The notes under the pieces: generated by a model
Database searches by the model: none
Seen by the model: only the letters and a program-made list of their open reading frames with translations
What the model was told of the DNA's origin: nothing
Origin: Membranipora membranacea
Lineage: Eukaryota > Bryozoa > Gymnolaemata > Cheilostomatida > Membraniporidae
Length of the DNA stretch: 64,000 nt
Assembly (NCBI GenBank): GCA_914767715.1
Contig: OU612073.1
Coordinates: 13,764,001-13,828,000, forward strand
Reading direction: 5' to 3'
In this document: in pieces, positions 2,064-55,640 of the stretch
Layout: each line of letters begins with the position of its first letter
Position numbering within the stretch: position 1 is the stretch's first letter
Made by a program: the position numbers and the translations under genes

Positions 2064-5000
2064 AGGAGAGGTATACACCCGAGGGTGCTGGGGGCTGGAA
2101 CAATCAACAATGAAAGCTCCCCCAGTGGGTCTCGAACCCACAACTCCTGCGGCACTAATCGCCTGGCAGTGAATAGCAAGCGCGCTAACCGATTGCGCCA
2201 TCTCACCATCCCCAAAAAAGAATGGGTCGATGGCGCTAATTAGATAGCCCGCTATTCACTACTCGGAGTTGTGTTCTCTCATCCCACAGCACATTCCAAT
2301 CCACCATTGCCACCCTATGAAACACAGCGTACGTGTTAGGGTTATTGGCCTTACATGGCCCATTGCTGGGACCCCTTGTAGTAGGTTTAGCTGTCTTTCC
2401 AGCTTGTCAGCATGTCTTTCCATGCTGTCACATGTCTTTCCATGAGTCAGTCAGTAGACAAGTACACAGGAGAGGTATACACCCGAGGGTGCTGGGGGCT
2501 GGAACAATCAACAATGAAAGCTCCCCCAGTGGGTCTCGAACCCACAACTCCTGCGGCACTAATCGCCTGGCAGTGAATAGCAAGCGCGCTAACCGATTGC
2601 GCCATCTCACCATCCCCAAAAAAGAATGGGTCGATGGCGCTAATTAGATAGCCCGCTATTCACTACTCGGAGTTGTGTTCTCTCATCCCACAGCACATTC
2701 CAATCCACCATTGCCACCCTATGAAACACAGCGTACGTGTTAGGGTTATTGGCCTTACATGGCCCATTGCTGGGACCCCTTGTAGTAGGTTTAGCTGTCT
2801 TTCCAGCTTGTCAGCATGTCTTTCCATGCTGTCACATGTCTTTCCATGAGTCAGTCAGTAGACAAGTACACAGGAGAGGTATACACCCGAGGGTGCTGGG
2901 GGCTGGAACAATCAACAATGAAAGCTCCCCCAGTGGGTCTCGAACCCACAACTCCTGCGGCACTAATCGCCTGGCAGTGAATAGCAAGCGCGCTAACCGA
3001 TTGCGCCATCTCACCATCCCCAAAAAAGAATGGGTCGATGGCGCTAATTAGATAGCCCGCTATTCACTACTCGGAGTTGTGTTCTCTCATCCCACAGCAC
3101 ATTCCAATCCACCATTGCCACCCTATGAAACACAGCGTACGTGTTAGGGTTATTGGCCTTACATGGCCCATTGCTGGGACCCCTTGTAGTAGGTTTAGCT
3201 GTCTTTCCAGCTTGTCAGCATGTCTTTCCATGCTGTCACATGTCTTTCCATGAGTCAGTCAGTAGACAAGTACACAGGAGAGGTATACACCCGAGGGTGC
3301 TGGGGGCTGGAACAATCAACAATGAAAGCTCCCCCAGTGGGTCTCGAACCCACAACTCCTGCGGCACTAATCGCCTGGCAGTGAATAGCAAGCGCGCTAA
3401 CCGATTGCGCCATCTCACCATCCCCAAAAAAGAATGGGTCGATGGCGCTAATTAGATAGCCCGCTATTCACTACTCGGAGTTGTGTTCTCTCATCCCACA
3501 GCACATTCCAATCCACCATTGCCACCCTATGAAACACAGCGTACGTGTTAGGGTTATTGGCCTTACATGGCCCATTGCTGGGACCCCTTGTAGTAGGTTT
3601 AGCTGTCTTTCCAGCTTGTCAGCATGTCTTTCCATGCTGTCACATGTCTTTCCATGAGTCAGTCAGTAGACAAGTACACAGGAGAGGTATACACCCGAGG
3701 GTGCTGGGGGCTGGAACAATCAACAATGAAAGCTCCCCCAGTGGGTCTCGAACCCACAACTCCTGCGGCACTAATCGCCTGGCAGTGAATAGCAAGCGCG
3801 CTAACCGATTGCGCCATCTCACCATCCCCAAAAAAGAATGGGTCGATGGCGCTAATTAGATAGCCCGCTATTCACTACTCGGAGTTGTGTTCTCTCATCC
3901 CACAGCACATTCCAATCCACCATTGCCACCCTATGAAACACAGCGTACGTGTTAGGGTTATTGGCCTTACATGGCCCATTGCTGGGACCCCTTGTAGTAG
4001 GTTTAGCTGTCTTTCCAGCTTGTCAGCATGTCTTTCCATGCTGTCACATGTCTTTCCATGAGTCAGTCAGTAGACAAGTACACAGGAGAGGTATACACCC
4101 GAGGGTGCTGGGGGCTGGAACAATCAACAATGAAAGCTCCCCCAGTGGGTCTCGAACCCACAACTCCTGCGGCACTAATCGCCTGGCAGTGAATAGCAAG
4201 CGCGCTAACCGATTGCGCCATCTCACCATCCCCAAAAAAGAATGGGTCGATGGCGCTAATTAGATAGCCCGCTATTCACTACTCGGAGTTGTGTTCTCTC
4301 ATCCCACAGCACATTCCAATCCACCATTGCCACCCTATGAAACACAGCGTACGTGTTAGGGTTATTGGCCTTACATGGCCCATTGCTGGGACCCCTTGTA
4401 GTAGGTTTAGCTGTCTTTCCAGCTTGTCAGCATGTCTTTCCATGCTGTCACATGTCTTTCCATGAGTCAGTCAGTAGACAAGTACACAGGAGAGGTATAC
4501 ACCCGAGGGTGCTGGGGGCTGGAACAATCAACAATGAAAGCTCCCCCAGTGGGTCTCGAACCCACAACTCCTGCGGCACTAATCGCCTGGCAGTGAATAG
4601 CAAGCGCGCTAACCGATTGCGCCATCTCACCATCCCCAAAAAAGAATGGGTCGATGGCGCTAATTAGATAGCCCGCTATTCACTACTCGGAGTTGTGTTC
4701 TCTCATCCCACAGCACATTCCAATCCACCATTGCCACCCTATGAAACACAGCGTACGTGTTAGGGTTATTGGCCTTACATGGCCCATTGCTGGGACCCCT
4801 TGTAGTAGGTTTAGCTGTCTTTCCAGCTTGTCAGCATGTCTTTCCATGCTGTCACATGTCTTTCCATGAGTCAGTCAGTAGACAAGTACACAGGAGAGGT
4901 ATACACCCGAGGGTGCTGGGGGCTGGAACAATCAACAATGAAAGCTCCCCCAGTGGGTCTCGAACCCACAACTCCTGCGGCACTAATCGCCTGGCAGTGA

Positions 5001-6702
5001 ATAGCAAGCGCGCTAACCGATTGCGCCATCTCACCATCCCCAAAAAAGAATGGGTCGATGGCGCTAATTAGATAGCCCGCTATTCACTACTCGGAGTTGT
5101 GTTCTCTCATCCCACAGCACATTCCAATCCACCATTGCCACCCTATGAAACACAGCGTACGTGTTAGGGTTATTGGCCTTACATGGCCCATTGCTGGGAC
5201 CCCTTGTAGTAGGTTTAGCTGTCTTTCCAGCTTGTCAGCATGTCTTTCCATGCTGTCACATGTCTTTCCATGAGTCAGTCAGTAGACAAGTACACAGGAG
5301 AGGTATACACCCGAGGGTGCTGGGGGCTGGAACAATCAACAATGAAAGCTCCCCCAGTGGGTCTCGAACCCACAACTCCTGCGGCACTAATCGCCTGGCA
5401 GTGAATAGCAAGCGCGCTAACCGATTGCGCCATCTCACCATCCCCAAAAAAGAATGGGTCGATGGCGCTAATTAGATAGCCCGCTATTCACTACTCGGAG
5501 TTGTGTTCTCTCATCCCACAGCACATTCCAATCCACCATTGCCACCCTATGAAACACAGCGTACGTGTTAGGGTTATTGGCCTTACATGGCCCATTGCTG
5601 GGACCCCTTGTAGTAGGTTTAGCTGTCTTTCCAGCTTGTCAGCATGTCTTTCCATGCTGTCACATGTCTTTCCATGAGTCAGTCAGTAGACAAGTACACA
5701 GGAGAGGTATACACCCGAGGGTGCTGGGGGCTGGAACAATCAACAATGAAAGCTCCCCCAGTGGGTCTCGAACCCACAACTCCTGCGGCACTAATCGCCT
5801 GGCAGTGAATAGCAAGCGCGCTAACCGATTGCGCCATCTCACCATCCCCAAAAAAGAATGGGTCGATGGCGCTAATTAGATAGCCCGCTATTCACTACTC
5901 GGAGTTGTGTTCTCTCATCCCACAGCACATTCCAATCCACCATTGCCACCCTATGAAACACAGCGTACGTGTTAGGGTTATTGGCCTTACATGGCCCATT
6001 GCTGGGACCCCTTGTAGTAGGTTTAGCTGTCTTTCCAGCTTGTCAGCATGTCTTTCCATGCTGTCACATGTCTTTCCATGAGTCAGTCAGTAGACAAGTA
6101 CACAGGAGAGGTATACACCCGAGGGTGCTGGGGGCTGGAACAATCAACAATGAAAGCTCCCCCAGTGGGTCTCGAACCCACAACTCCTGCGGCACTAATC
6201 GCCTGGCAGTGAATAGCAAGCGCGCTAACCGATTGCGCCATCTCACCATCCCCAAAAAAGAATGGGTCGATGGCGCTAATTAGATAGCCCGCTATTCACT
6301 ACTCGGAGTTGTGTTCTCTCATCCCACAGCACATTCCAATCCACCATTGCCACCCTATGAAACACAGCGTACGTGTTAGGGTTATTGGCCTTACATGGCC
6401 CATTGCTGGGACCCCTTGTAGTAGGTTTAGCTGTCTTTCCAGCTTGTCAGCATGTCTTTCCATGCTGTCACATGTCTTTCCATGAGTCAGTCAGTAGACA
6501 AGTACACAGGAGAGGTATACACCCGAGGGTGCTGGGGGCTGGAACAATCAACAATGAAAGCTCCCCCAGTGGGTCTCGAACCCACAACTCCTGCGGCACT
6601 AATCGCCTGGCAGTGAATAGCAAGCGCGCTAACCGATTGCGCCATCTCACCATCCCCAAAAAAGAATGGGTCGATGGCGCTAATTAGATAGCCCGCTATT
6701 CA
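2064..6702 (-). repeat. 404-bp tandem satellite built from a tRNA-Ile-like SINE
   Basis: The array is 4639 bp with a period of exactly 404 bp. It reads as 12 copies of a ~195-bp segment (S) alternating with 11 copies of a ~209-bp spacer (L), so it begins and ends with S. By eye the units are identical at every base I compared. S, read on the minus strand, has a tRNA-like head. L holds three short copies of a TGTCTTTCCA motif. The left edge is at AGGAGAGG (2064) and the right edge is inside GCTATTCA (6702). Small open frames inside the unit repeat with it and are not genes. The array sits about 600 bp upstream of the proposed start of the LRR-Roc-COR-caspase gene. Confidence 0.95.
2117..2206 (-). 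repeat. tRNA-Ile(UAU)-like SINE head, first of 12 copies
   Basis: On the minus strand the segment has a box A (TGGCGCAATCGGTTAGCGCG) that resembles eukaryotic intron-containing tRNA-Ile(UAU), and a consensus box B (GGTTCGAGACC) inside a perfect 5-bp T stem. The seven bases on each side that would form the acceptor stem do not pair, and the anticodon arm is not clean. It is therefore a tRNA-derived pol III promoter head, not a working tRNA gene. Eleven further copies start every 404 bp, at 2521, 2925, 3329, 3733, 4137, 4541, 4945, 5349, 5753, 6157 and 6561. Confidence 0.85.
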
Positions 6703-6740
6703 TTACACAATCATTCATTACACAATCATTACAACTCCTA
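6703..6740. repeat. short direct repeat at the right edge of the satellite
   Basis: CATTCATTACACAAT occurs twice in succession just after the last satellite unit. It may be a target duplication or a tail of the ancestral SINE insertion, but no matching copy is seen at the left edge. Confidence 0.5.
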
Positions 6741-7313: not shown

Positions 7314-7338
7314 ATGGGATCGGGTCAGGAGCGTGAAA
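7314..7338 (+). CDS. proposed first coding exon (8 codons plus 1 nt)
   Basis: The ATG at 7314 opens a 25-nt exon ending at GAAA|gtaagt, phase 1. This matches the phase required by the acceptor at 8393 and yields a Lys codon across the junction. An in-frame TGA lies upstream. The choice rests only on phase and a good donor, because no homology helps with so short an exon. An ATG at 8300 reads into exon 2, but it lies inside the TIR of a foldback element, so I prefer splicing. Confidence 0.4.
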
Positions 7339-10300
7339 GTAAGTAGGCTGAGGTGTAGATTTTTCGTAAAGCCTTGATCTAGGGTCACTCCCGCCCTAGC
7401 GGTTGCAGCAGCAGGTCATGCTTGATCTAGCTCAGACCTATGCCAGCTTCACTAGGTAATGAAGATGCATGAAGATATAGGCCTTAGTTGCTATGCAAAC
7501 TCTAATGAATGAATAGTCACAGCTTTATGACATAATATGTTGAAATAAGTCGTTGGTTAAAAATATTGGTTAAAATCCCAATCGTTAGTCACTCACCACA
7601 TCGTGGCGGCGAAATAGTGTGCCTGAAGGGCGAGGCTGCAATGACTGCGCCAATTTGCTCTCAGTTTGTAGGCAAGTCGGAGCACACCTGGGGGTCCAAC
7701 AACTCCCAGTAGTCAGTTGACTGCAGTGGGATTTCAACTTATGACCTTCAACACTGTCATGATAAATGCTAGTCTCCACAAAGATGAGGGTCAATTATTT
7801 TAGATCGCACATAAAGACTTCAGAAGAACCACAGCAATACATAGTCTGGCAGCTAGTTATGCAATATTTTCCCATTCAGAAATTCAGAGCACTATTGGGT
7901 AAAAGTTATGTATAGTGTTAGTAATTGTTCGCCCTTCTCATCTATGAGCTATGAGGCATCCATGGTGCCTAGCGCTGTGCCAACCTAATAAGCTACCACT
8001 TCAAAATAATTTTAATAACCATTCTTTTCCACATAAGTTCAAAATCAATATAGTTCCAGTGTCAGTAGACATTTTACAATACTAGATAACTTCATTTATT
8101 AATTTATACAGTTCTCTCAAGTAGATAGAAGTGATAGTTTATCGGGTTGGTACAGCACTAGGCCCCATGCCCTCATAGCTCATAGATGAGAAGGGAGGAA
8201 AATTTTTAATACTATACATAATTTTACCAAAAAGTGCTCTGAATTTTCCAAGCGTGAAAATATTGCGTAACTACTGCAGAACTAGCTGCCAGACTATTTA
8301 TGGCTGTGGTCTTTTTGAAGTCTTTAATCCTGTACATGTGCGATGAAGCACATACCTACCACTCATACCTTGCCCATGTTGTTTATTTATCAGAGTACAC
8401 AGTAAGTTTCTGGTTCGACGACCCACCAAATATTCTAAAATTCAATCCTGAGGAGCACGAGAAACGCGTCTTCACCAGGCTGACAGAGAGTGAGCTTGGA
8501 AACCTGATATACAAAGGCCAACCAGAGAGGAAAATAACAGTATTATATGTACTCGGTAACTTACCAAACATCATCTCCATCGCTCCTAAGCTCCGGTGGC
8601 TCAGACTGTCAGCTTTCACAGAGGAAGTTAGGAAACTTGGATGTTTTCGTACACTTCATGAGAGGTATTGATTGCGATAGGGGGAAAATACAAATACTAT
8701 TTTCTGACCCAAAATGCAGTGTCCCGGGATGGATGGTGGCGCTGCGTGGCACCAAGCTCTATCAGCCATCTTATTATGTCTTCAACATCAAAATACAAAT
8801 ACTAATATAAAACCATATTGCATAAAAATTTACAATCATTAAATTTATAGTTTGCTACAAGATGAGCGACCCCCGACTCTAAATAAGTCGTTTGAATCGA
8901 CACTTGACAAGTTTATCATTTTCATTTCTTCAAAAATTGCTATCCAACAATTGAGTTGATAGTTTTGCTGTTATATTCAGGCTTACATACGTGAGAGATA
9001 CCCTAGAAGTTCTGGACATATCAAACAATGATTTACATGAAGAAGGAGTACCATCATGGGTCAGAGAATTTCCATATCTCAAATGCTTGGATTTATCCAG
9101 ATGTGGACTAAAGGATCTCCCATCTTGGTAAGTTTCAGCAGATTACAGAGGATTAGAATTTAACATCAATGTGGTATGGGTTCTCTTAGAACAAATTTGA
9201 TTCAATTGCCTGCATTCCTGTTGCTCCCTTCCACTGGTCACCCCGGGGGCAAAGGCCTGCGGCGTGACCAGTGGATCGGGAGCGACTCGGAATGCAGGCA
9301 AATGGACCAAACTTGGTCTAGGGTTCACTGGATCATGGGTTACCAAGGACAGGTAGGTCAAAGCTTTGTTTCCAGAGTAATGAAATGGAACAGGGCTTGA
9401 AAAAGGTCTTGTTATGATCACTTGAGACACACCTACTGTGTCAATTACTACCCATTATGTCAAACCACCGAAACTAACAAAATGCACTGAGGGATCGATG
9501 AGATTGATTGAGATGCTCATCAACACACAGGGGTGGCTTCATGCTGCTGGGGCCGGCCATTGAGGAGGTTGTACTAGAGAAGGCCTCAAAACAGCGCTTG
9601 ACTCATGGTTTCTAGCTGAAGACCTGTGTGTTGTGCAGTGGTACGCGCGCCACTGTATGTTGTATCCATAGAGTTATTATATACTCTAGAGTGGACAATG
9701 CAGTGCTAAAAACATCCGACTTAATTATTGCGAAATCCATGACACAACGCAATCTGGTTGTGCATGGCTAGTGCCTGTATCATATAACTTATCATTGAGA
9801 ATATACATATCGGGTATGGAAATTTAGATTTTTAGAGCTTTTATAGCTATTTTATCGGAAATTTTTTCAAGTGACTTTATGTGGATCACTTGCATGAATT
9901 TTCACTCGCAGCCAGAGGAAAACGTTTCTATTTTTTCCCATAAAAATAAGCCAAAATCTCTATCGAATAGTGGACGAATCATTGACTTAACCATTGAACA
10001 TATTAGAATTGGACAAACAAATTTAGTTTATGGAGCACTAATGGCCATTTTTATCAGAGAATTAACACCATTTACATCACCTGCAGGTGTTCTCTCTTAC
10101 AGTCAGTATAAAAATTTTCTTATTCCCCCATTAAAATAAGTCAAATATCAACCGCAAACACATGAGCTAAATCGCAATGACAGGACTAGCTCGTTTCTGC
10201 CACTCGCCACTGTGTCCTGTCTGTTGCACACTCAGTCGGTTTATTTTATCTGTTCAGTTCCAGCTACTGACGATGATTTGTGATAACATGTGGTACAAGT

Positions 10301-13300
10301 AGCCTGTGGAAAAACAATTGGAGGTGAAAAAGCTTGCTGCTTGCCTTTATTGTTTGTAGAGCATTTTTAGCAATATATTTGTAAACTTTTCATGTCACAC
10401 TATAAGACGACTTGCAAGTGGTTTCTTTAGCAGTAAGGGGATAAAAAGATTTGTGTTATCCCCTTAAAACACCAAAATCTCAACCGCCAACACATCATCG
10501 CGATAAAATCACAATACCAGGCTAGCCGGTTTTCGCCCCTGCCACTTGCCTTCCAGTTTAACTGTGTCCTGTATCTCTTACCAAAATGTTATACACTCAG
10601 TGAGTTCATTTTATCTGTCCAGTATTATGACTTCCATTTATACAAGGCGTGCAAGTAACCCGTGTGGTTCAAAAATTTTCTGCCCAAAGATCTCGGGTTT
10701 TTGTTTGGCTATGTCGTTTAAAGCTCTTAATTCCCTGTCCGGGGTGGCCGCTCGATTTTTTATTGCCGAAACTATTCAAGCCAACACATCAAAAAATGCA
10801 TAAACTCTTCTGCTGAGTCGCTGAATATCAAGAAAACGCCGAATGGACAACTCAAGATACATACTTGTCAAGATTGATTATATGAAAATGGCAGTCAGTT
10901 ATCAATTATGGAGAAAACACCATAATATTTCGTCTTTGCAACACCAATCTTCAGTTGAGAAGAGTATAGAGGGCGTAATTAGAGGCTTTAATAATATTTC
11001 ATCTTTAGGTACATATATTGGTATACAATGTGAATCTTTTAACCAATGATACATTATCATTGGTCCGAATCTTTCTATTTGCACTCGCCTCTGCGATCTA
11101 CCAACAAGACAGATATTAACATGGTTATATTAGTGCTGAGAAAGCCGCTATAATTTCGCTCTCCGATGTGACATTTTCACAGATATTTCAGATTTCTCAC
11201 AATACTCAAACTGAGAGATAATTTGGTTCAGGGGGGAGATGGGTGTGATGTAACTTTATTTGATGGTTGTTTATTTGTAAACGTAAACATCACATACACT
11301 ATTTTTACACCTCACTCACCTCACTCTACACAGTCTACTTGTACCTCTTTTAATTCTTTTAATTTTAATTAGGTCAGGTAATTTCTATTTCATCACAATG
11401 ATGTGTTTGCGGTTGAGATTTTGGCTTATTTTAATGGGAAAACATTGAAACATGTTCTACTGGCAGCGAGTGAAAATACCTGCAAGTGATCCACATAGTG
11501 TAACACAAAAGAATTTCCGAAAAAAATAGCTATAAGCGCTCAAAAAGTCTAAATTTCCATGCGCGTTACGTATATTCTCAATGATAAGTTATATGATGCA
11601 GGCACTAGCCATGCACAACCAGATTGCGGTGTGTCATGGATTTCGCAATAATTAAGTAGGACAAAAACTGATGCTATTTTTGTACTCATTGTCCACTCTA
11701 GAGTATATAATAACTCTATGGTTGCACCTCTTATCTCTATGGCAAAGATGTGTGGATATGTGAATGGTTTTCCTGGTTTTGTTCAGTTGTCACATGTTTG
11801 GTTATAAGCATCACAGTTAACGTTGTTTTACAGGATTTCTGAATTACAATGTTTAGAGAAGCTTGTACTCTCTCATAACCAGTTCGAGGATGGAGTTCTG
11901 CCAGAGGTAGTATGCAAGCTGAGCAAGCTCAGAGAGTTGAATCTGGTTGATTGCGGTCTCAAGACTCTACCTGATAGGTATGTGTCCTCTTTAATACAAA
12001 ACTTCGAGTCCAACCTTCACCTTCAGGTCAGTGGTTGAGTTACAACAAATGGTCTAATATGAAGGTATACCTAGTTACCAATGAATGAATTCCACTGAAT
12101 AGGAATTAAAATCTCCAGTGCCCCAATGATGGTGACCTAGCGTCCCTGATAAAATTAAGTGAAACAGATTTATTCCACATATTGTTTGGAAGTAGCCTAG
12201 AATTAGTTTATTTCAGCCTATGTTATAGAATATATATTGTGTGTTGCAGCTTTGAGAATCTCAAGAGTTTAGAATTACTTAATCTGGAAGCGAACGAGCT
12301 TACAGATTTTCCTGATGTAATCACCAAACTGACAACCCTACAGCAACTTTACCTTCCGCACAATAGAATCTCAAACCTCCCAGAAAGGTGTGTTCTTTAT
12401 AACAGTAGAAAACCCAACTTTTATGATCAGATCAGAGAGAGAAACTTGTTCTTGATTGCAATGTTATGGCTTTTAATGATTCTTTCATTTCAAGGCAAAC
12501 ATACTACATTCCCTTCTTAAAAGAGTAGAATATTCCACATTATGAAAAATATCGTAATGTAGGGTAATGTAGGGTAATGTTTGATATGTCCTATGTCCTA
12601 ATATGACGTCATGCGAACATGTTAACAGGCATGTTAACAATGCTGACGCTGCACAAACCTCAGCACTTTGCACATGAGCACCAATCAATTAAGGCTGGTA
12701 AACTTTGTACTGTAGCGTTTGGAATATCCAAATGCGCTTGAGTTCCTAGTTTGGATGGGGTGACTTTCCAGTTTGAGCACATTTAGATTAATCCAAACAC
12801 TACGGTGCAGAGAGACTGAGATCACTGAGTCGATCTGCAAGCAGTGTGGATCCTCAGAGGATTTTATGTGTATACAAAAACCAATTTAGGAGCTGTCGAG
12901 GTTGCAACCTCTTGTCAATGTGTTTAGACCATCATGAACACAAGACAAAGGTCATCGTATTATGACATGCAAAAGTTTCTGTTGTTGATGTCAGCATTCC
13001 ATAATTTTTGTTGCAGCTTTGGACAATTGAAAGCCCTGAAGTGTTTGAATATAAGAGAAAACACGTTTCGAAGCCTGCCTTCCTGCATTTACCAGTTAAA
13101 TGACCTGGAGAATTTAAATGCCAGTGGAAATAAACTAACTAGCGTTGAACCAGAGATAATCACCCTTCCAAAACTTGAGGTCTTAGGCTTGACTGGATGT
13201 ACAACTCTTCGCAGTCCTCCGTCAGAAGTTTGTGAGCAGGGCATTGAAAGCATAAGACAGTACTTTGTCGACTTATCTACTGGCGTAAGGAAGACAATTC

Positions 13301-16300
13301 CTGCTGTAACAATGGCTGTGATTGGCCAAAAGATGTCTGGAAAGACCAGTCTGATAAGAACTCTACAGAATAAAATGAGGAAGAGAGTGCTCACAAACCG
13401 TGTGCCTGGCACAGCTGTGGATGAAGCTACTAAAGTATGAATGAAATTTTGCTTGTCGCACATTGTTTTCCATATCTTCCAAACTTCCATTCTGAGTTCT
13501 TTTGTTATCAAACAAAGCCAGCACCGACCCTTTAAGCTTGTTATGGTGCAAAAATGTAATATCACATATTGTAAACAGTAGAATAGCAGCGTCTTTTTGT
13601 CTGTCCGACAGGTTTTCAACATGGAAAAGGTAGAGGTAGGAGACAACATCCTTAGATTTCTAGATCTAGGAGGGCATGAAGTGTACCATCCAACATACCA
13701 CATGACACTGAAGGACAGCTGTATTCCAGTAATTGTTGTGAACATCGCCAAATTTCAAGAACTGGCCACTGACCCAGCTGTTGGCCCAAAAGAAGCAGTT
13801 AGAAAGCTCTGCTTCGACTGGATGTCTCATTTGTATGTCTCGTGCCCTAAACTGGGCCCTCCAACTCTAGTATTCACTCACAGGGATAAGTTGACATTGG
13901 ATGATAGCGTTTCCGCTATGCAGAGCTTCCTCTTCTATTGTGAAGAGATTAGGACATCCCTTCTTGAGGAGGAGGAAAAAAGAGATGGAGTTTTCTGTAA
14001 GATAGACCACATGAGCAATACAGAAGTTCAACTGTTTGACAGGAAAGATGTGTATATTATATCTGATGATCCCAATCACTATGATACTTTTAACCGGATG
14101 TTGATCTCATTCCAGAAATTAAGTGGCCAGTTTGAGCGTGAGCTTCCAGAAATATGGATAAAGATCATATTTCACATCGAAAGCCTCGTAGGCACATTCA
14201 TTATTTATAGGAAGTTGAAGGAAGAACTGGTGCACAAATTTCAGGCCAAACCAGAACAGATATCTGTTGTCCTCACTTACCTCCATGATTCAGGAGCCCT
14301 ACTGTGGTACCCTGATATAGAAGAGCTTAGACCTTATGTGTTTCATAATATCCCTGCTCTGACCGGCATACTTAGTGTGTTCTTCAACCACGCCAGTGAT
14401 AACATTTGGGCGAAGCGTTTCAAAGAGTTTAAACCTTTCCTGGATAGCAAAGGTCATCTTGTGGAAGTCGAAGAGTTTGAAGAACATTACCAGACCCTGC
14501 AAGGATCGGGAATCATGAACGCACAGCTTCTTTACCACCTCATACAGACTGAATCAGAATTCTCTAATTTTGATTCTGTGTCTGTGGCACTTGGAATACT
14601 CCATAAGTTCAAGCTCATGTTTGGGCCAATCCGGCATCAAGGGAAGCCAGCATTTGTTCTCCCTTTCTTCTCTGATGGCTATCACAGTGATACACTTCCG
14701 TACAAAGAATATCCACTTCGTTTTCGAATAGAGATAAACTTCAAAGGACTGGCGTTACCACAATACCTTTACCATGCAATGAGCATTGACTCAGTTCTGA
14801 AATGTTTCAGAAAGGCTACGGACACACTAAGGCTAGTATCCAATGGCGTGACAGTGTACCACAAGAAATCCGTCCTGCGTTTCACCCACGATTTCAAATC
14901 AAGGAAAGCAATCATAGAGATGACGGCTGATGTTGATGAGCTAGCTCATAATGTCTGGGCAACACTACAAAAAGTGACAAAGAGAGTGATCTTTGATGCT
15001 AAACATGGCTGGTCAGCTGCAAGATTTGTCTGCATCTTCTTCTGTCCCCATTGTCTGATCAAAGGTAGTCCGCACCCACGCCGAAAAGTTAACCCAGACT
15101 GGTGCTTCCCATCATTGACTAAGCTGAACCCTGTAAGGAAGGGAGGTCTGCACTATAACTGGGATAGTATAGATTGTGCTGCTATGGAGCCTGTGATATG
15201 CGGATCGGATATGGAGGTGCCGTACTGTCTTACTGGTCCAGGTAAGTGGTCAGACTGTTTACATTCCATCTGCTTTGACAATAAGATATTGCAAGTTTGG
15301 ATATTCTATGAACTTGAAGTGCATTCTCAGCACTATGTCAGTTATCACAGAACAATTTTACAATCCCAGTAGTATTCCATTAATAAACATTTATGATATG
15401 AGACAAAATGGACAACTATAGAATTCAAGAGCTGAGAGAATTATTTAAATCTTGTATTTTCTTAAAGTTGCAGGTGATATGTCTGCTGAAGAGATAACAC
15501 AACTCACAAAATATATCAATGACATAACACCTTCAGCTCGAGCACATCCTGTTTCACGTCCGACTCCATTGCCACGAAGCCTATCAAGACCAGCTGAGTC
15601 AGTAGACTCTGTTCAGCCTCCGATCCCCTCTCCCAGGCCTACTAAAAGATTACAAAATGATACAGCTATGTCAGTCAAACCAGTCGCTAAGTGTTCTGTG
15701 ACAGAGAATGGTGGCGCTACCAGCGTTGGAGGGACATTAACAAATGTTCATGCTGACATAACGAATACAATAAAAGGTTAGTTAAACTTTTATTTTATGA
15801 ATAACTTTATAAAATTGCAGTGACCTAGAACTTAGACGGATTCTCTAGCTCTTTTCTAGCAGCCAGCTAGATATTAACTCAAATAGATATATATAGATGA
15901 TGTCTCTTTTGATTTAGAGCAGGAAACGTCAGAAGTTATTAATTCTGGCCCAATGAATATTGAGCGGATTTACGCTTGTCACCATATGGAAGCATGTACT
16001 GCTACGACAATAAAGGTTCTAATGCTCCATCCGCCCTTCAAGATATTTCCGATATGTATTTATCCTTTTGATCCATGCCATTCATAAAATTGTGGTAGCA
16101 AGAACCAGTTCTCAAACTTGACCCAATTTGGTAGGAACACAACCCAACCATGTGTAATATCTCACTGTGTCGTCATTTGTTGTAGTAACATCGTCCGCAC
16201 AAATTCCACAGTATAGTGATGAGAGTGATATGTCAGATGGGGACGGGTACCTGGACCCTCAACCTGATGAAGACTACAAATATCTGATCAGGCTACGAGT

Positions 16301-19300
16301 GGCTCCAACAAGAAAACCTCACATCAAGTCACTCTTCATCAATACAGACAAGGTTTGAAGCTACATACAAATAAACGTCATCATAATCATAAATAGATTC
16401 TGTCTCATTTACAAAATTTCCCTACCCTGGAGTGTATCTAGAGATTCTCCCCCTTCTGTCATATAATTGGCAAATCCTTAACTCAATTTTGTAAATTGAT
16501 TTCTACCCTCATTGTTACACAGTTTGTAGGATGAAACTTTGTTCTTGCCACTCATACACCCATACACTTATCATCAACCTCCTGAACTTCCAGGGAGGGA
16601 ATGCCATATATTAGATGTTGCAGTTAAAGCTGATCTCCCTTTGTTCCAGGTTAAAGTAAGCCAATGTGTTGGCTCTGATCTGATTGGCCGTTGGGTTGGA
16701 ATGGTTCTCCTGCATGCCACCAGCCAATCAGAGCCAACACCTATGCTGTGTTAATACTGATGCAATAAAGAAAAATTCCTAACATACCCTGTTATAGGCT
16801 TACAAGATGTCCAACCCAGTGAGAGGCAGAGCATTGGTGATAAACAATGAGCGGTTCTCTCAGCTATCCCTTACTAGAAAGGGATCTTCTGTCGATGTGA
16901 AGAATATCGAACTTGTGCTGAAGTCTCTCAAGTTTGAGATTGCAGAGCCTTCCACTGGTACTGAGAACCTCTATGCTAAGGTAGGGACCTGTCTATTCAG
17001 TTATGTTTAGCCTGAGTGCACATACTCTTCAGATCAGGAAGGATGTAGCTATTGCCCTGTATATTACACATCTATGCAGGCCGGTTCTGGCAACTGTATG
17101 GATTTCAATTTGGCTTTATAGTCTTTATAGACTTTATAGACATCTACTCATTTTTGATAGGTTGTTAAAGCTAGAATTGAAATAATTGTAAATTATTGCC
17201 ATTACTTATACTGGTTGCAAAACCTGCATTAATTTTCAGCTTCACCTAACGTCTGTCAAAACAAAACTTTGGATTGATGGTTGGGTACCAACTTGATTTG
17301 AATGTTTCATATGCAATGCTTACATCTTAAACATGCAATTTTAAAATAGTATGATGACATGTGACCTCTTGATTCACTTGATACTATTATAGTTGTTATC
17401 CTCTCCCAAGTTTTGGACATAACATTGCACATTTATATGTAGGACATGTTATCAGCCATCCGGGAAGAGACACAGAACCTAGATCATGAGGATTACGGCA
17501 TGTTTGCTCTGGTTATCATGAGCCATGGCACCGAAGATGAGTGTATACTGGGTGAGTAATACACTGCATTTCCATGGTAATTCTGAGGTCGACCTGAGGC
17601 TAATTTCGAGGGTCTTCGAGCTATGGAAATGGCTCCGAGATCGCTTTGAGCTTCAAGGTTCAACTCGCACATATCAGCTTGCTGTAAAGCGAGCTGTCTT
17701 GGCCGAGCGGTTAACATCATAAACTCTGACGCGGGAGGCCGGGTATCAAATCCCCGCGGCGGCAGTTTTTTTTGATGTTTTTTTTCTCAGCACTATCATG
17801 GGAATGGCTGCATATTTCGAGATCGAGCCAGGGGTGATAACTCAGCTCGATCTAAGCCAACCTTGAAATTCACGTGGAAACATGGTGATAGTCAGACGGC
17901 TGCAAGTGCGAGTTTGCAGCAAATAAATGTTTGATAATGTAATGGCACAAACTTGTAATTTCAGCTGTTTAGCACTTAGACTAGGTGAGTTACGATTGAG
18001 TTCTCTAAACAAACATTGCATCGTGTGCAGAGTATCCATGATAAGCACTTTTTTGGTAGATTTTAATAATTCTGTCCCCACAATACTTATTTTAGATATT
18101 ATCCTATCTTGTTTTAGGGTCCGACGTGGTTTCAGTGAAACTCAAGCACATATGCGACCTTCTCTCGCCTAAAAACTTTCCTGGAATGGCTGGGAAACCA
18201 AAGCTGGTCATAGTACAAGCTTGTGCTGGTTGTAAGTGTTATATAATAGCACATTTCATATCACTTTTTTAAAATAAGTTACTCTACAGTGGAAATGATT
18301 ATGTGGCTTATATTTAAACACTGAGTAAAGTTAGCCAAATCACATTCTGCTCTTGTCATCTGTCCAGAAGGGTGTTACTTTAGGCTGGTATATGGCATGG
18401 CTGGTATGGCTGGTATGGCAAATGATTATGTATATATGAAATTTCATATTCCCTCGTGATACCACCAAACACCTACTGAATGTTTATGCATTTGAGCGAA
18501 AACAGTGTGAGGCAATATTTCAAACCATCAAAGCAAACATGTAGATTTTGTAAATAATCTTAGGAGTAGGAGGCGGCTCAGTTGGTTAGAGCGCCATCCC
18601 TTCAGCATGCAAATGTTCAAGGTTGTGGGTTAGAATCCCACTGCATTCAATCGACTACTGGGGTTCGGTCGGCCACCAGTTGACCTCCAACTTGCCTGCA
18701 AAGAGAGAGCAACCTTGCGCAGATATTCAGGCCTTGCTCTCAATGCAACTAATATGCTTTGGGATGTGGCGTGTTATATGACAACTTGATTTTAATTAAC
18801 CAGTCTCTACTGCATCACAAATAAAAAGGCATCCCTAATTGAACATCCGGCATTCTAACTATTTTCAGATAAACCAGATTTAGGTGGCAGTGAGACAGTG
18901 ACAGCAGACACCTCGCTGACACCGACACTCAAAGTGGTAGACTATCATGTCTCTCCCTCAGCAGCGCCCAGTGAGGTCGTCATAACACCAGGAGGGACAA
19001 AAACTGAGGTCAAAAATGAAAAGACTCGAATAAACATGCTGAATGTTGATGACCTGCTGATTATGCGATCCTGTTTTGAATGTAAGCTAATTTTCCAGTT
19101 CTATATAAATGACTAAGAAATGAAATATATTTGTTGGTCCAAATTGATCCTGCATTCTCCAAATATTTTGACAGTTTTGATGCTTTGCAGTCTGCTATAC
19201 TTTTTTGAAGTCAGGATTGAATTTAAAACCGCCTGAGGGTTCAGATTATAGACAAAACACATCTATGTGTTTTGTTGTCTGTGGCACTTCAATTAATTAT

Positions 19301-20062
19301 TTAGGAGTTGTGCTCCCATCGTTGAGGTGAACCGCATTCTTGGCCCTTCGTCAGTCCCGGCTTTGTACGATCAATACACACTTGATATGTACATGTGCTG
19401 AGGAATTATAGTAATATTATCCATGTTGTAGCCTATATGTCTATCAGGAATGAGAACAGCGGCTCTCTCTTTATACGCACACTTGTGACTACATTATACA
19501 AACACGCCTGTCATAGGGATATGTGGAGTCTGTTTGAAATCGTAAGTTCTCTCAATTTTGGATTTGAGAAATAGTGAGAACTATGCATTAAAACAGTTTT
19601 CTTTGTCTTCCATATAATGTAAATATTTATACATTGGCATCTAGATATGCTCTGAGATTAGATATATAGCCTTACTCTGTGATGATTTGATTTTAAGGTA
19701 GCTAATATGTCTGTGGTCATATGCTGATATATTGGCGGTAGCATCTTATTGCTTCCATTATGAGTCATCATTTCCAAACCCAAGGTGGAGCAACGTTGGC
19801 TGTTTGCTCGGCTTTAATTCCATCTTATCCAATCAAGCATTGTACTGTGTTTTTCATAGGATGCAGTAGAGCTATGTTGTCTTCTCAAACAAATGTCGAT
19901 GGTTCTGTTTTTTAGGTTCAAGAGAGAGTAAGGAGAGAAAGCATAGCGATCGCTGAGAGACATCCAGGGATTGGGTTCGGTCAAACAGTGATAGCCAACA
20001 AAACATTCACCAAGAGAAGAAAACTCTATTTGTTCCCAGGATGCTCCGCTCCAAGGGAATGA
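7314..20062 (+). CDS. LRR-Roc-COR-caspase fusion protein, 15 exons, 1372 aa
   Basis: Exons: 7314-7338, 8394-8664, 8981-9127, 11834-11977, 12250-12387, 13017-13434, 13612-15241, 15474-15776, 16186-16352, 16798-16980, 17443-17551, 18118-18231, 18869-19081, 19432-19541, 19916-20062. All introns are GT..AG, phases match at every junction and the total is 4119 nt without an internal stop. The order is leucine-rich repeats (about residues 99-305), Roc GTPase (P-loop 345-352, DLGG 399-402, THRD 470-473), COR (about 569-741), a Cys-rich tail, a Pro-rich linker (925-1081) and a full caspase domain (1082-1372; His1170, Cys1214). The expected role is a cytosolic sensor/switch in which repeat-mediated recognition and a GTPase control a protease. 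That role is inferred. Exon 1 is the least certain. The alternative is two neighbouring genes, a ROCO gene and a caspase gene, but I see no stop or terminal exon between them. Confidence 0.8.
7590..7780 (-). mobile_element. degenerate tRNA-derived SINE copy
   Basis: On the minus strand this stretch aligns by eye with the body of the SINE at 18570-18800. Shared landmarks are ATCCCACTGCA, a tract around GACTACTGGG, ACTTGCCT, GAGAGCAA and TGCGCAG/GGCGCAG. The box B region is corrupted. It lies in the first intron of the proposed LRR-Roc-COR-caspase gene. Confidence 0.55.
7812..8326. mobile_element. 515-bp foldback/MITE with ~180-bp inverted arms
   Basis: The arms 7812-7990 and 8148-8326 are imperfect inverted repeats beginning TAAAGACTTC. 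Shared blocks include AGTCTGGCAGCTAGTT and CTTCTCATCTATGAGCTATGAG. No transposase is present. Related single-arm copies lie in introns of the LicD-like genes (about 46150-46310 and 53110-53280). It is inserted in the first intron of the caspase-fusion gene, just upstream of exon 2. Confidence 0.85.
8394..9127 (+). CDS. exons 2-3: N-terminal region and first leucine-rich repeats
   Basis: Exon 2 (8394-8664, phase 1 to 2) encodes an N-terminal stretch with no clear domain. Exon 3 (8981-9127, phase 2 to 2) encodes two leucine-rich repeats with LEVLDISNN and LKCLDLSRCGLKDLP cores. The donor of exon 2 is AG|gtattg at 8664; an earlier GT at 8553 gives an incompatible phase and a stop in exon 3. Intron 2 (8665-8980) is short and shows nothing notable. 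Confidence 0.75.
9206..9302. repeat. hairpin element with ~36-bp arms
   Basis: TTGCCTGCATTCC...CCACTGGTCAC is followed after a GC-rich loop by its imperfect reverse complement GTGACCAGTGG...GGAATGCAGGCAA. A second copy is at 61138-61212, and both are followed by ATGGACCAAACTTGGTCTAG. Two short open frames over it, one on each strand, are products of the palindrome. Confidence 0.8.
9666..11721. mobile_element. ~2.06-kb foldback element with ~310-bp terminal inverted repeats
   Basis: The left arm (9666 to about 9970) and right arm (about 11412-11721) are inverted copies starting CCATAGAGTTATTATATACTC. Between them is a partial direct duplication (about 10130-10275 and 10455-10625) sharing AACCGC(A/C)AACACAT. 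No transposase-like ORF is visible, so it is probably non-autonomous. It fills most of the intron between LRR exons 3 and 4 and explains that intron's length. Confidence 0.85.
11834..12387 (+). CDS. exons 4-5: leucine-rich repeat modules
   Basis: Exons 11834-11977 and 12250-12387 are both phase 2-2 and each encodes about two repeats (LEKLVLSHNQF, LRELNLVDCGLKTLP, LELLNLEANELTDFP, LQQLYLPHNRISNLP). Together with exon 3 these are 147, 144 and 138 nt symmetric cassettes. Duplication of such exons would add repeats without disturbing the frame. The repeat spacing of about 23 residues is typical of ROCO-type leucine-rich repeats. Confidence 0.9.
13017..13434 (+). CDS. exon 6: last leucine-rich repeats and Roc P-loop
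   Basis: The exon starts after TTGTTGCAG in phase 2 and ends AAA|gtatga in phase 0. It carries the last two or three leucine-rich repeats, a capping segment and then the nucleotide-binding P-loop GQKMSGKTS (residues 345-353). The AVIG beta strand directly before the P-loop is typical of small GTPase folds. An intron splits the Roc domain between P-loop and switch II. Confidence 0.9.
13612..15241 (+). CDS. exon 7: Roc switch regions, COR domain and Cys-rich tail
   Basis: This 1630-nt exon is open throughout. Switch II is LDLGGHEVYHPTY (D399 to G402) and the guanine-specificity motif is FTHRDKL (THRD, 470-473). Both fit the Roc class of GTPases, which often has THxD in place of NKxD. COR-type sequence follows from about residue 569, with a segment around LTYLHDSGALLWYPD that is typical of the family. 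Residues 855-862 give CIFFCPHC in a Cys/Trp-rich tail resembling the C-terminal region of MFHAS1-like ROCO proteins. The donor CCAG|gtaagt is strong, phase 1. Confidence 0.9.
15474..16352 (+). CDS. exons 8-9: Pro-rich and acidic linker
   Basis: Exon 8 (15474-15776, phase 1 to 1) encodes a low-complexity Pro/Ser/Arg-rich segment with PxxP motifs such as PTPLPRSLSRP, which could bind SH3 domains. Exon 9 (16186-16352, phase 1 to 0) encodes a Ser/Asp-rich stretch (SDESDMSDGDGYLDPQ). No known domain is recognised. These exons are the bridge on which the single-gene interpretation depends: both are open and phase-compatible with the ROCO exon before and the caspase exon after. A further open segment at 15918-16015 shifts the phase and is not included. 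Confidence 0.65.
16666..16740. repeat. 75-bp inverted-repeat mini-element
   Basis: GTGTTGGCTCTGATCTGATTGGC is followed by the reverse complement GCCAATCAGAGCCAACAC. A related copy follows the caspase stop codon (about 20073-20125) and a fragment lies at about 57966-57984. It sits in the intron between exons 9 and 10. Confidence 0.7.
16798..20062 (+). CDS. exons 10-15: complete caspase catalytic domain (p20 and p10)
   Basis: Exon 10 begins the p20 fold with RGRALVINNERF and the RKGSSVDVKNIE helix. Exon 11 carries the catalytic His in VIMSHGTEDE (H1170). Exon 12 carries the catalytic Cys in KLVIVQACAG (C1214; QACAG instead of the commoner QACRG/QACQG). Exon 13 is the intersubunit linker with several Asp residues. 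Exon 14 has SYMSIRNENSGSLFI, where the Arg and Ser match the P1-Asp pocket residues of caspases. Exon 15 ends with the RKLYLFPG strand and a short tail before TGA (20060-20062). All catalytic and pocket residues I can check are present, so I expect an active protease that cleaves after Asp. There is no CARD or DED; the ROCO half takes the prodomain position. Confidence 0.9.
17562..17887. mobile_element. repeat with imperfect TIRs enclosing a tRNA-like sequence
   Basis: The element opens CACTGCATTTCCATGG and closes CACGTGGAAACATGGTG, an imperfect inverted terminus. In the middle (17692-17766) is a type II tRNA-like stretch with box A TGGCCGAGCGGTTAAC and a degenerate box B (GGGTATCAAATCCC). 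A second copy is at 39949-40222. It lies in the intron between caspase exons 11 and 12. It may be a MITE that captured a tRNA, or a tRNA SINE nested in a TIR element. Confidence 0.65.
18570..18800 (+). mobile_element. tRNA-derived SINE
   Basis: The head (18572-18650) has box A GGCTCAGTTGGTTAGAGCG and box B GGTTAGAATCC, one change from the GGTTCGAATCC consensus, within a T-arm GTGGG/CCCAC. The body runs on with CTACTGGGGTTCGG and CTTGCCTGCAAAGAGAG. A degenerate minus-strand relative is at 7590-7780. It is intronic in the caspase part of the fusion gene. Confidence 0.7.
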
Positions 20063-54320: not shown

Positions 54321-55640
54321 TGATTGATTGATTTTATTTCCATCACTAACATAATATATGTTGTGAAAAAAGGTGTTAAATACTGATGCCCATGATATTA
54401 AAAAAATGATGACAGTGTAGCATACATGGCTTAAAATAGAAGTTAAAAGTCTCTGAGGCTGGATGTCATTTAACAAAAATTACTATACAAGTTTATTAAG
54501 CTTGAGTGCTGCCTGGTGTAAAAAAGAATCTCTGCCCCATGTGCTTCTGTATTTAATAGTACAATATCGTCCTGATGGGCACTTTTCAAGAAAGGCATTT
54601 ATAAAATGTTTGTCATCATGTATATATTGTAGAAGCAAGGTGTTAGTTTTGGCCTCTATTAGATTGTCGATATTCCCAAGATCTTCGATGCCTAGTTTGA
54701 GTGCCTCTTTAAAAAAGTGTCGGAGTTGCTTTTCATCTTTAGCATACAGGGATGTGAAAAGAATGGGCAGACAGTAAGTAAGAAGGGAGATAATAAAACT
54801 TTTGAATAGCATCCTAGCCAGGGTGGTTGAACTAAGGTAAAAAAAATTTCTAACGATATAAATTCTCTGACTAGCTTTTGTTGCCACAGAGTTAATGTGC
54901 TCTTCAAAACGAAGTTTGTTGTCTATCAGCACCCCTAGATATTTCACATTGTCACTAAAACTGATACTAACATTATTCAAAATCATAGCAGGGGTGTCTG
55001 GCTTAATAGAAAACAACATTTCTTGGGTCTTACTTGGGTTCAAGAAAAGGTCTAAGGAATTACATTGATCGGATATTCTATCTACTTCAGAAATATAATT
55101 ACTCAAATCAGACTCATCAGAAATACAACCTATTACACAAGTGTCGTCTGCGTCTGCGTATTTTAAAGTAGTGACATTATTAGTTTGAGATCTAAAACAG
55201 AAAACAAAAGAGGGCTTAACACAGAACCTTGGGGAGTGCCTGTATTGGTGACAATAGGCTGAGACATAGTGCCATCAACTAATGTTCTTTGAACTCGACC
55301 ACTGAGGAAACTGGTTATCCAACCTGTTACATTACAGTCCAGATGTTGTAGTTTGGGTATGAGATGACTGACGTTTATAGTTCCAAAGGCCGAAGAGAAA
55401 TCTAGGAACAGGCATCGTGAATAATTGCAAGCTTGTATGTCAATAAAGTTTGTAACAGTCGTAGTGAGGCAGAGCACTGCATCCTGGGTTGAACGATGTG
55501 AGCGATAAACGAACTGAAATTTATCCAAGGAAGTGTGGTTAGAGATGTAGGTCTTAACTCTTAATAAGTCTCTCTAATATTTTCACCAGGCAGCTAGTCA
55601 GAGCAATAGGACAGTACAGTTACAAGGCTGCTCTACTTAC
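54321..55640 (-). mobile_element. 5'-truncated CR1/Jockey-like LINE inserted in copy C
   Basis: Minus-strand frames at 55163-55528 and 54483-55106 carry RT signatures: FVYRSHRSTQDAVL, LDFSSAFGTI, GTPQGSVLSPLLF, a YADADD variant of YADD, and KYLGVLIDNKLRFEEHI. The two parts are separated by a frameshift and another occurs near 55530. The element ends in a (TCAA)n tail exactly at 54321, the edge of a LicD-like exon, and removes the normal acceptor. It is dead. Confidence 0.85.

Follow-up and report, generated by a model that had tools for sequence, protein, structure and literature searches.

Can one animal gene encode a sensor, a GTPase switch and a protease in a single chain, or are two neighbouring genes being read as one? 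The locus in question lies on contig OU612073.1 of the bryozoan Membranipora membranacea, within a stretch of 64,000 nt that was analysed as a whole and is called the window here. An original prediction had placed in it fifteen phase-matched exons encoding a chain of 1372 residues without an internal stop, in which leucine-rich repeats (LRRs), a Roc-COR GTPase unit and a caspase follow one another. We rebuilt the 15-exon model at 7314..20062 on the forward strand exactly as described, and it yields 1372 amino acids (aa), on which all residues are numbered (Table 1). The fusion of LRR, Roc, COR and caspase is almost certainly real at the level of the genome. We estimate at about 70% the probability that it is one gene whose product works as a single-chain sensor, switch and protease, belonging to an expanded bryozoan family and acting by the mechanism outlined below. 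The single-chain reading gained support from purifying selection on a second complete copy, fused predicted proteins in two other bryozoans and a genome-wide co-orientation of the two halves. One gene is favoured because the copy on contig C1 is intact, because the models of other bryozoans are also fused, and because the start of the exon 8 linker recurs elsewhere in the genome.

Domain composition of the predicted protein

The LRRs and the caspase domain of the model pass their Pfam cut-offs. The Roc motifs claimed originally were all located (P-loop GQKMSGKT at residue 345, DLGG at 399 and THRD at 470), COR directly follows Roc, and exon 7, which encodes most of the Roc-COR unit, matches the fold of Roco structures, namely LRRK1 (E 5e-13), LRRK2 and the Roco protein of C. 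tepidum. The predicted catalytic residues of the caspase fold, His1170 and Cys1214, are both present in a domain that exceeds the C14 cut-off. By motif only, the presumed S1 residues Arg1108, Gln1212 and Arg1293 are present as well, Arg, Gln and Arg being what we take to be the S1-pocket assignment for cleavage after Asp; the p20/p10 linker in exon 13 includes Asp residues. The domain appears to be a caspase of the CED-3, caspase-9 and caspase-3 kind with intact catalytic residues. The 15 Pfam families matched by the model at E<=0.1 include no kinase, no death domain and no CARD or DED; Pfam lists no NACHT or NB-ARC ATPase for it either, and the switch is Roc.

Four residues at the end of COR (Cys859, His861, Cys862 and Cys911, within residues 859-911 of exon 7) are invariant in an alignment of nine sequences, and form a possible metal site. 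In four places of a cluster on C7 in the same genome, CGSC replaces the CxHC of this stretch.

A second copy under purifying selection

Contig C1 carries a second copy that is 94% identical in the Roc-COR exon and keeps all 15 exons, the splice sites and the frame, which is open through to the stop. Fourteen exons of this copy were placed automatically with AG/GT borders, and exon 8 by a motif search after alignment. Length differences between the gene and the copy preserve the frame. The ratio of nonsynonymous to synonymous divergence (dN/dS, Nei-Gojobori) is 0.18 over 1356 codons, and by part amounts to 0.25 in the LRRs, 0.09 in Roc-COR, 0.58 in exon 8, 0.26 in exon 9 and 0.12 in the caspase. 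Linker exons 8 and 9 taken together have a deficit of nonsynonymous relative to synonymous differences (p 0.009), as does exon 9 alone (p 0.025). Between the two copies the repeats change faster at the protein level than Roc-COR does (Fisher p 0.0008). An assembly error or a chance join was also considered, and is unlikely given this copy and the relatives in other genera.

Relatives in Watersipora and Bugula

The original prediction had proposed looking for the same architecture in related genomes, and the order is indeed present in predicted proteins of two bryozoans. Eleven database proteins with a caspase domain following the Roc-COR part were recovered; Watersipora subatra contributes ten and Bugula neritina one, and both species are cheilostomes. 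All eleven pass the C14 cut-off, nine have Roc at E<=0.01, and five are labelled "MFHAS1 homolog" by NCBI. Models P0002 and P0006 are without repeats, and P0007 and P0008 without p10. All nine aligned sequences, the window gene included, retain the catalytic His and Cys. Among the seven Watersipora models with LRRs above the cut-off, the number of LRR_4 stretches ranges from 1 to 17. In Watersipora P0003 six fibronectin type III matches and a hydrophobic C-terminus come after the caspase; the protein may be anchored in the membrane, or the model may merge two genes.

Protein database searches returned 8 matches among 3939 candidates for residues 1030-1372 and 7 among 5761 for residues 380-1372. 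Neither contained a fusion from outside Bryozoa, the sole non-bryozoan match (P0012) being a retroelement-caspase prediction from a snail. These searches are weak evidence that the fusion is absent outside Bryozoa, because they require shared five-residue words and missed vertebrate MFHAS1.

An expanded family in the Membranipora genome

The genome of Membranipora itself was searched with the exon-7 protein, where 80 of 219 candidates, the window gene included, were scored and gave 80 matches, and for caspases, where 140 of 515 candidates were scored and 145 matches listed; copy numbers are accordingly lower bounds. At 58 of the 80 Roco places the 6 kb downstream contain a same-strand caspase match (median 1425 nt); over the same range, 0 of the 80 have such a match upstream or on the other strand. 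An even spread would give 0.0013 caspase matches per Roco place. Twenty places, the best-scoring of the 80 rather than a random sample and including the window gene and the C1 copy, were fetched with 6.2 kb of downstream sequence. Same-strand caspase exons are present in all 20, and the other strand has them in none. Eight of the 22 places unpaired at 6 kb were among those fetched and all eight proved to have caspase exons, which brings the scored places with caspase evidence to 66 of 80. Roco places are grouped at three or more per megabase on C9, C11, C3, C5 and C7.

Across 25 genes the Roc-COR and caspase distances correlate at 0.947 (Mantel; 0/5000 permutations), a value inflated by recent duplicates among them; the tree and the Mantel test omit L033 and L038, where only the first caspase exon lies within 6 kb, and P0002, P0006, P0007 and P0008. 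Such a correlation would be expected of two halves that evolve as one unit, though physical linkage alone could produce the same value.

The motifs of both halves are widely retained. DxGG and THxD occur in 20/20 fetched places, with the P-loop in the same frame in 18/20; the presumed S1 Arg is found in 19/20, and the catalytic His and Cys and the p10 Arg in all 18 places whose exons were reached. The catalytic Cys stands in the context QAC in 15 of these and QSC in 3. This bears on whether, in part or all of the family, the caspase of an expressed fusion is a scaffold or decoy in the manner of c-FLIP. Such a role would agree with the varied surroundings of the catalytic Cys (QACAG, QACSG, QSCSDG), and the protease activity of the family is itself a prediction; the unbroken retention of His and Cys here and in the nine aligned sequences, together with the low dN/dS of the caspase part (0.12), makes a decoy improbable.

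Two side observations concern these caspases. Three members of the C7 cluster (L034, L035 and L037) have QSCSDG in place of the usual QACxG at the catalytic Cys. Of the 145 caspase matches, 87 are unpaired with scored Roco places, some being parts of one gene and some maybe ordinary caspases. Many of them lie in clusters at C1 33-37 Mb and at C10 14 and 22-24 Mb, which include frames of more than 400 aa, and most caspases in these clusters could not be paired with any of the 80 scored Roco places. The clusters may represent another expanded family of caspases or a Roco subfamily that is more remote.

One gene or two

Two profiles of the linker between COR and caspase, one of the exon 8 start and one of the exon 9 end, were run on the fetched places; both include the window gene's own row. 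The exon 8-start profile gives 25 forward matches against 1 reverse, weak and COR-end ones counted, and 14/20 places, the window gene among them, have a helix-like segment in forward orientation between the Roc-COR and caspase parts. This speaks to the alternative in which adjacent Roco and caspase genes, kept in a conserved order, are merged only by gene prediction. An ATG is present close to where exon 10 begins, and the interval between 15241 and 16798 contains five AATAAA hexamers, so that a shorter alternative transcript may end within it; co-variation of the two halves would, as noted, also arise from linkage. Against two genes, the Roc-COR frame runs without a stop up to its splice donor, and the linker segment recurs in forward orientation. 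Purifying selection on exons 8 and 9, frame-keeping length differences between the copies, and the fused models of independent annotators in two other bryozoan species likewise argue against separate genes, which we regard as very improbable.

A number of observations weigh against the single-chain reading as a whole. The gene and its protein are predictions from genome sequence. The domain search proposed by the original prediction bore out the LRRs and the caspase, whereas Roc and COR of the model score under their Pfam cut-offs (Roc at 25.7 bits against a cut-off of 27), and among the 11 relatives only two have Roc above the cut-off. The relatives are gene predictions, four of them shortened at one end, and the P-loop of Watersipora P0004 appears degenerate by eye. 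Exon 8 by itself is under little constraint (dN/dS 0.58, Fisher p 0.055). The exon 9-end profile has no clear forward excess, and its recurrence is unsupported because 9 forward and 7 reverse matches were obtained in the 20 own places. The strict acidic motif is confined to 2 of the 20 (the window gene and the C1 copy), with 0/20 on the reverse strand. L033 has Lys at the presumed S1 Arg position, and the Roc-COR and caspase trees are similar, not identical.

Proposed mechanism and function

For the single-chain protein we infer ligand binding, dimerisation and proteolysis. The repeats would bind a trigger, upon which the Roc-COR unit would alter its oligomeric state with GTP and bring two caspase domains together, activating them by dimerisation. 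Initiator-kind caspases activate on being brought together. The paired caspases might then cleave one another within the long p20/p10 linker, and perhaps also in the linker after COR, and the protease would act without a CARD or DED adaptor; it is plausible that the fusion dispenses with one. A DESD-like acidic motif was tried as a general release site and rejected, the strict pattern being found in only 2/20 own places; looser variants, seen by eye in some other places, leave an acidic release site as a lead only.

The repeats would be the recognition part, a role that agrees with their faster change than Roc-COR and their varying LRR_4 number. The expansion of the family suggests a role in defence or cell fate. 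A caspase suits any controlled cell loss, and the fused protein might equally be imagined as a developmental or housekeeping factor, for instance in the controlled loss of zooids in the colony, rather than a defence receptor. We hold this to be unlikely: the many and partly clustered copies (80 scored places from 219 candidates), the range of 1 to 17 LRR_4 stretches in the seven Watersipora models and the faster change of the repeats all fit recognition better, though they do not prove it.

Relation to known systems

By its Roc-COR fold the window gene is a Roco protein, by its catalytic domain it is a caspase, and it stands outside the three described Roco groups. In the available portions of a 2019 review, none of these groups has a caspase, and the word caspase is missing from the main text (PMC6337361). 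Group 1 has LRRs before Roc-COR and no further domain described (PMC6337361). The window gene resembles this group and MFHAS1 (MASL1) in its repeats followed by Roc and COR and in the Roco fold of exon 7, and differs by the linker and caspase after COR. It is set beside MFHAS1 by domain order, not orthology, the name on the relatives being an NCBI annotation; MFHAS1 genes are confined to deuterostomes according to a 2014 review (PMC4104024). Human MFHAS1 binds GTP and has a nucleotide-dependent oligomeric state, and C. tepidum Roco is mainly a monomer with GTP and a dimer without nucleotide (PMC6337361).

LRRK1 and LRRK2 (group 2) and DAPK1 (group 3) likewise chain a Roc-COR switch to an effector, but theirs is a kinase, with a death domain added in DAPK1 (PMC6337361); the kinase follows COR in group 2 and precedes Roc in group 3, and Pfam lists neither domain for the window gene. 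CED-3, caspase-9 and caspase-3 differ in that the window gene has no Pfam-listed CARD or DED and carries a GTPase and repeats N-terminally instead. In placozoans, Roco proteins occur with CARD and death domains, likewise a tie to death-signalling modules, but these are adaptor domains and not a protease (PMC4104024). Prokaryotic conflict systems described in a 2021 paper combine an NTPase switch with a caspase, together or in one chain; their NTPases are of the STAND class, not Roc, and the organisms are distant (PMC8195603), which makes the resemblance likely one of convergent design.

No Roco-caspase fusion appears in the available part of PMC7159879, where Roco terms are limited to the reference list, and none from a metazoan was found in the literature in an incomplete search judged on titles and abstract openings. 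We provisionally regard the fusion as undescribed. A more tentative proposal, which we rate slightly below even odds, is that it represents a fourth Roco class in bryozoans. The class would have at least 66 places in the Membranipora genome, the full number of genes being probably far higher, and each of its proteins would link variable sensing repeats through a GTPase switch to an initiator-type caspase. Such a receptor for death or inflammation would work without a CARD, DED or death-domain adaptor and fill the role played elsewhere by NLRs and inflammasomes. The family also suggests that one animal phylum based a large repertoire of receptor-proteases on a GTPase rather than an NLR, which is relevant to the way in which shared modules are put together into death and immune pathways. 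Roco proteins include LRRK2, and the coupling of GTPase to effector in them is a long-standing question. With a Roc-COR switch apparently wired to a protease that should be easy to assay, these bryozoan proteins might serve as a natural readout of the effect of Roc-COR on its effector.

Exons and neighbouring sequences

Table 1. Exons of the Membranipora gene, all on the forward strand of the window.
Exon	Position	Content	Support
1	7314..7338 (+)	start codon, residues 1-8	in rebuilt model; placed in C1 copy
2	8394..8664 (+)	N-terminal region ahead of repeats	C1 copy differs by in-frame 3 nt
3	8981..9127 (+)	leucine-rich repeats	Pfam; placed in C1 copy
4	11834..11977 (+)	leucine-rich repeats	Pfam; placed in C1 copy
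5	12250..12387 (+)	leucine-rich repeats	Pfam; C1 copy differs by in-frame 12 nt
6	13017..13434 (+)	final repeats and Roc P-loop (residues 345-352)	Pfam, motif check, C1 copy
7	13612..15241 (+)	remaining Roc (DLGG, THRD), COR, C-terminal CxHC stretch	fold match to LRRK1/LRRK2/C. tepidum Roco; genome matches
8	15474..15776 (+)	linker; opens with helix-like segment (DMSAEEITQLTKYI)	similar segment in 14/20 fetched places, own gene included
9	16186..16352 (+)	acidic linker with DESDMSD and IKSLFINTDK	weak recurrence in other own-genome places
10	16798..16980 (+)	caspase p20 start; Arg1108, presumed S1 pocket	Pfam, motif check
11	17443..17551 (+)	caspase catalytic His1170	motif check
12	18118..18231 (+)	caspase QACAG with catalytic Cys1214	motif check
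13	18869..19081 (+)	p20/p10 linker, p10 start	C1-copy comparison
14	19432..19541 (+)	caspase p10; Arg1293 of SIRN	motif check
15	19916..20062 (+)	p10 end and stop codon	in rebuilt model

A tandem array at 2064-6706, with a 404-bp unit in 11.5 copies that are 99% alike, ends shortly before the gene. It contains 12 minus-strand tRNA-like matches exactly at the Rfam cut-off (29 bits); ARAGORN reported no tRNA genes. A further tRNA-like stretch, noticed by eye at about 18565-18660 in the intron between exons 12 and 13 and reported by neither ARAGORN nor Rfam, is perhaps a SINE. On the minus strand, an open frame of 1083 residues at 24094-27342 matches DUF1759 (32.2 bits), a domain that we take to be typical of retroelements. 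Two more open frames lie on the minus strand at 54486-55573, one without a Pfam match and the other with a match to RVT_1 (58.2 bits).
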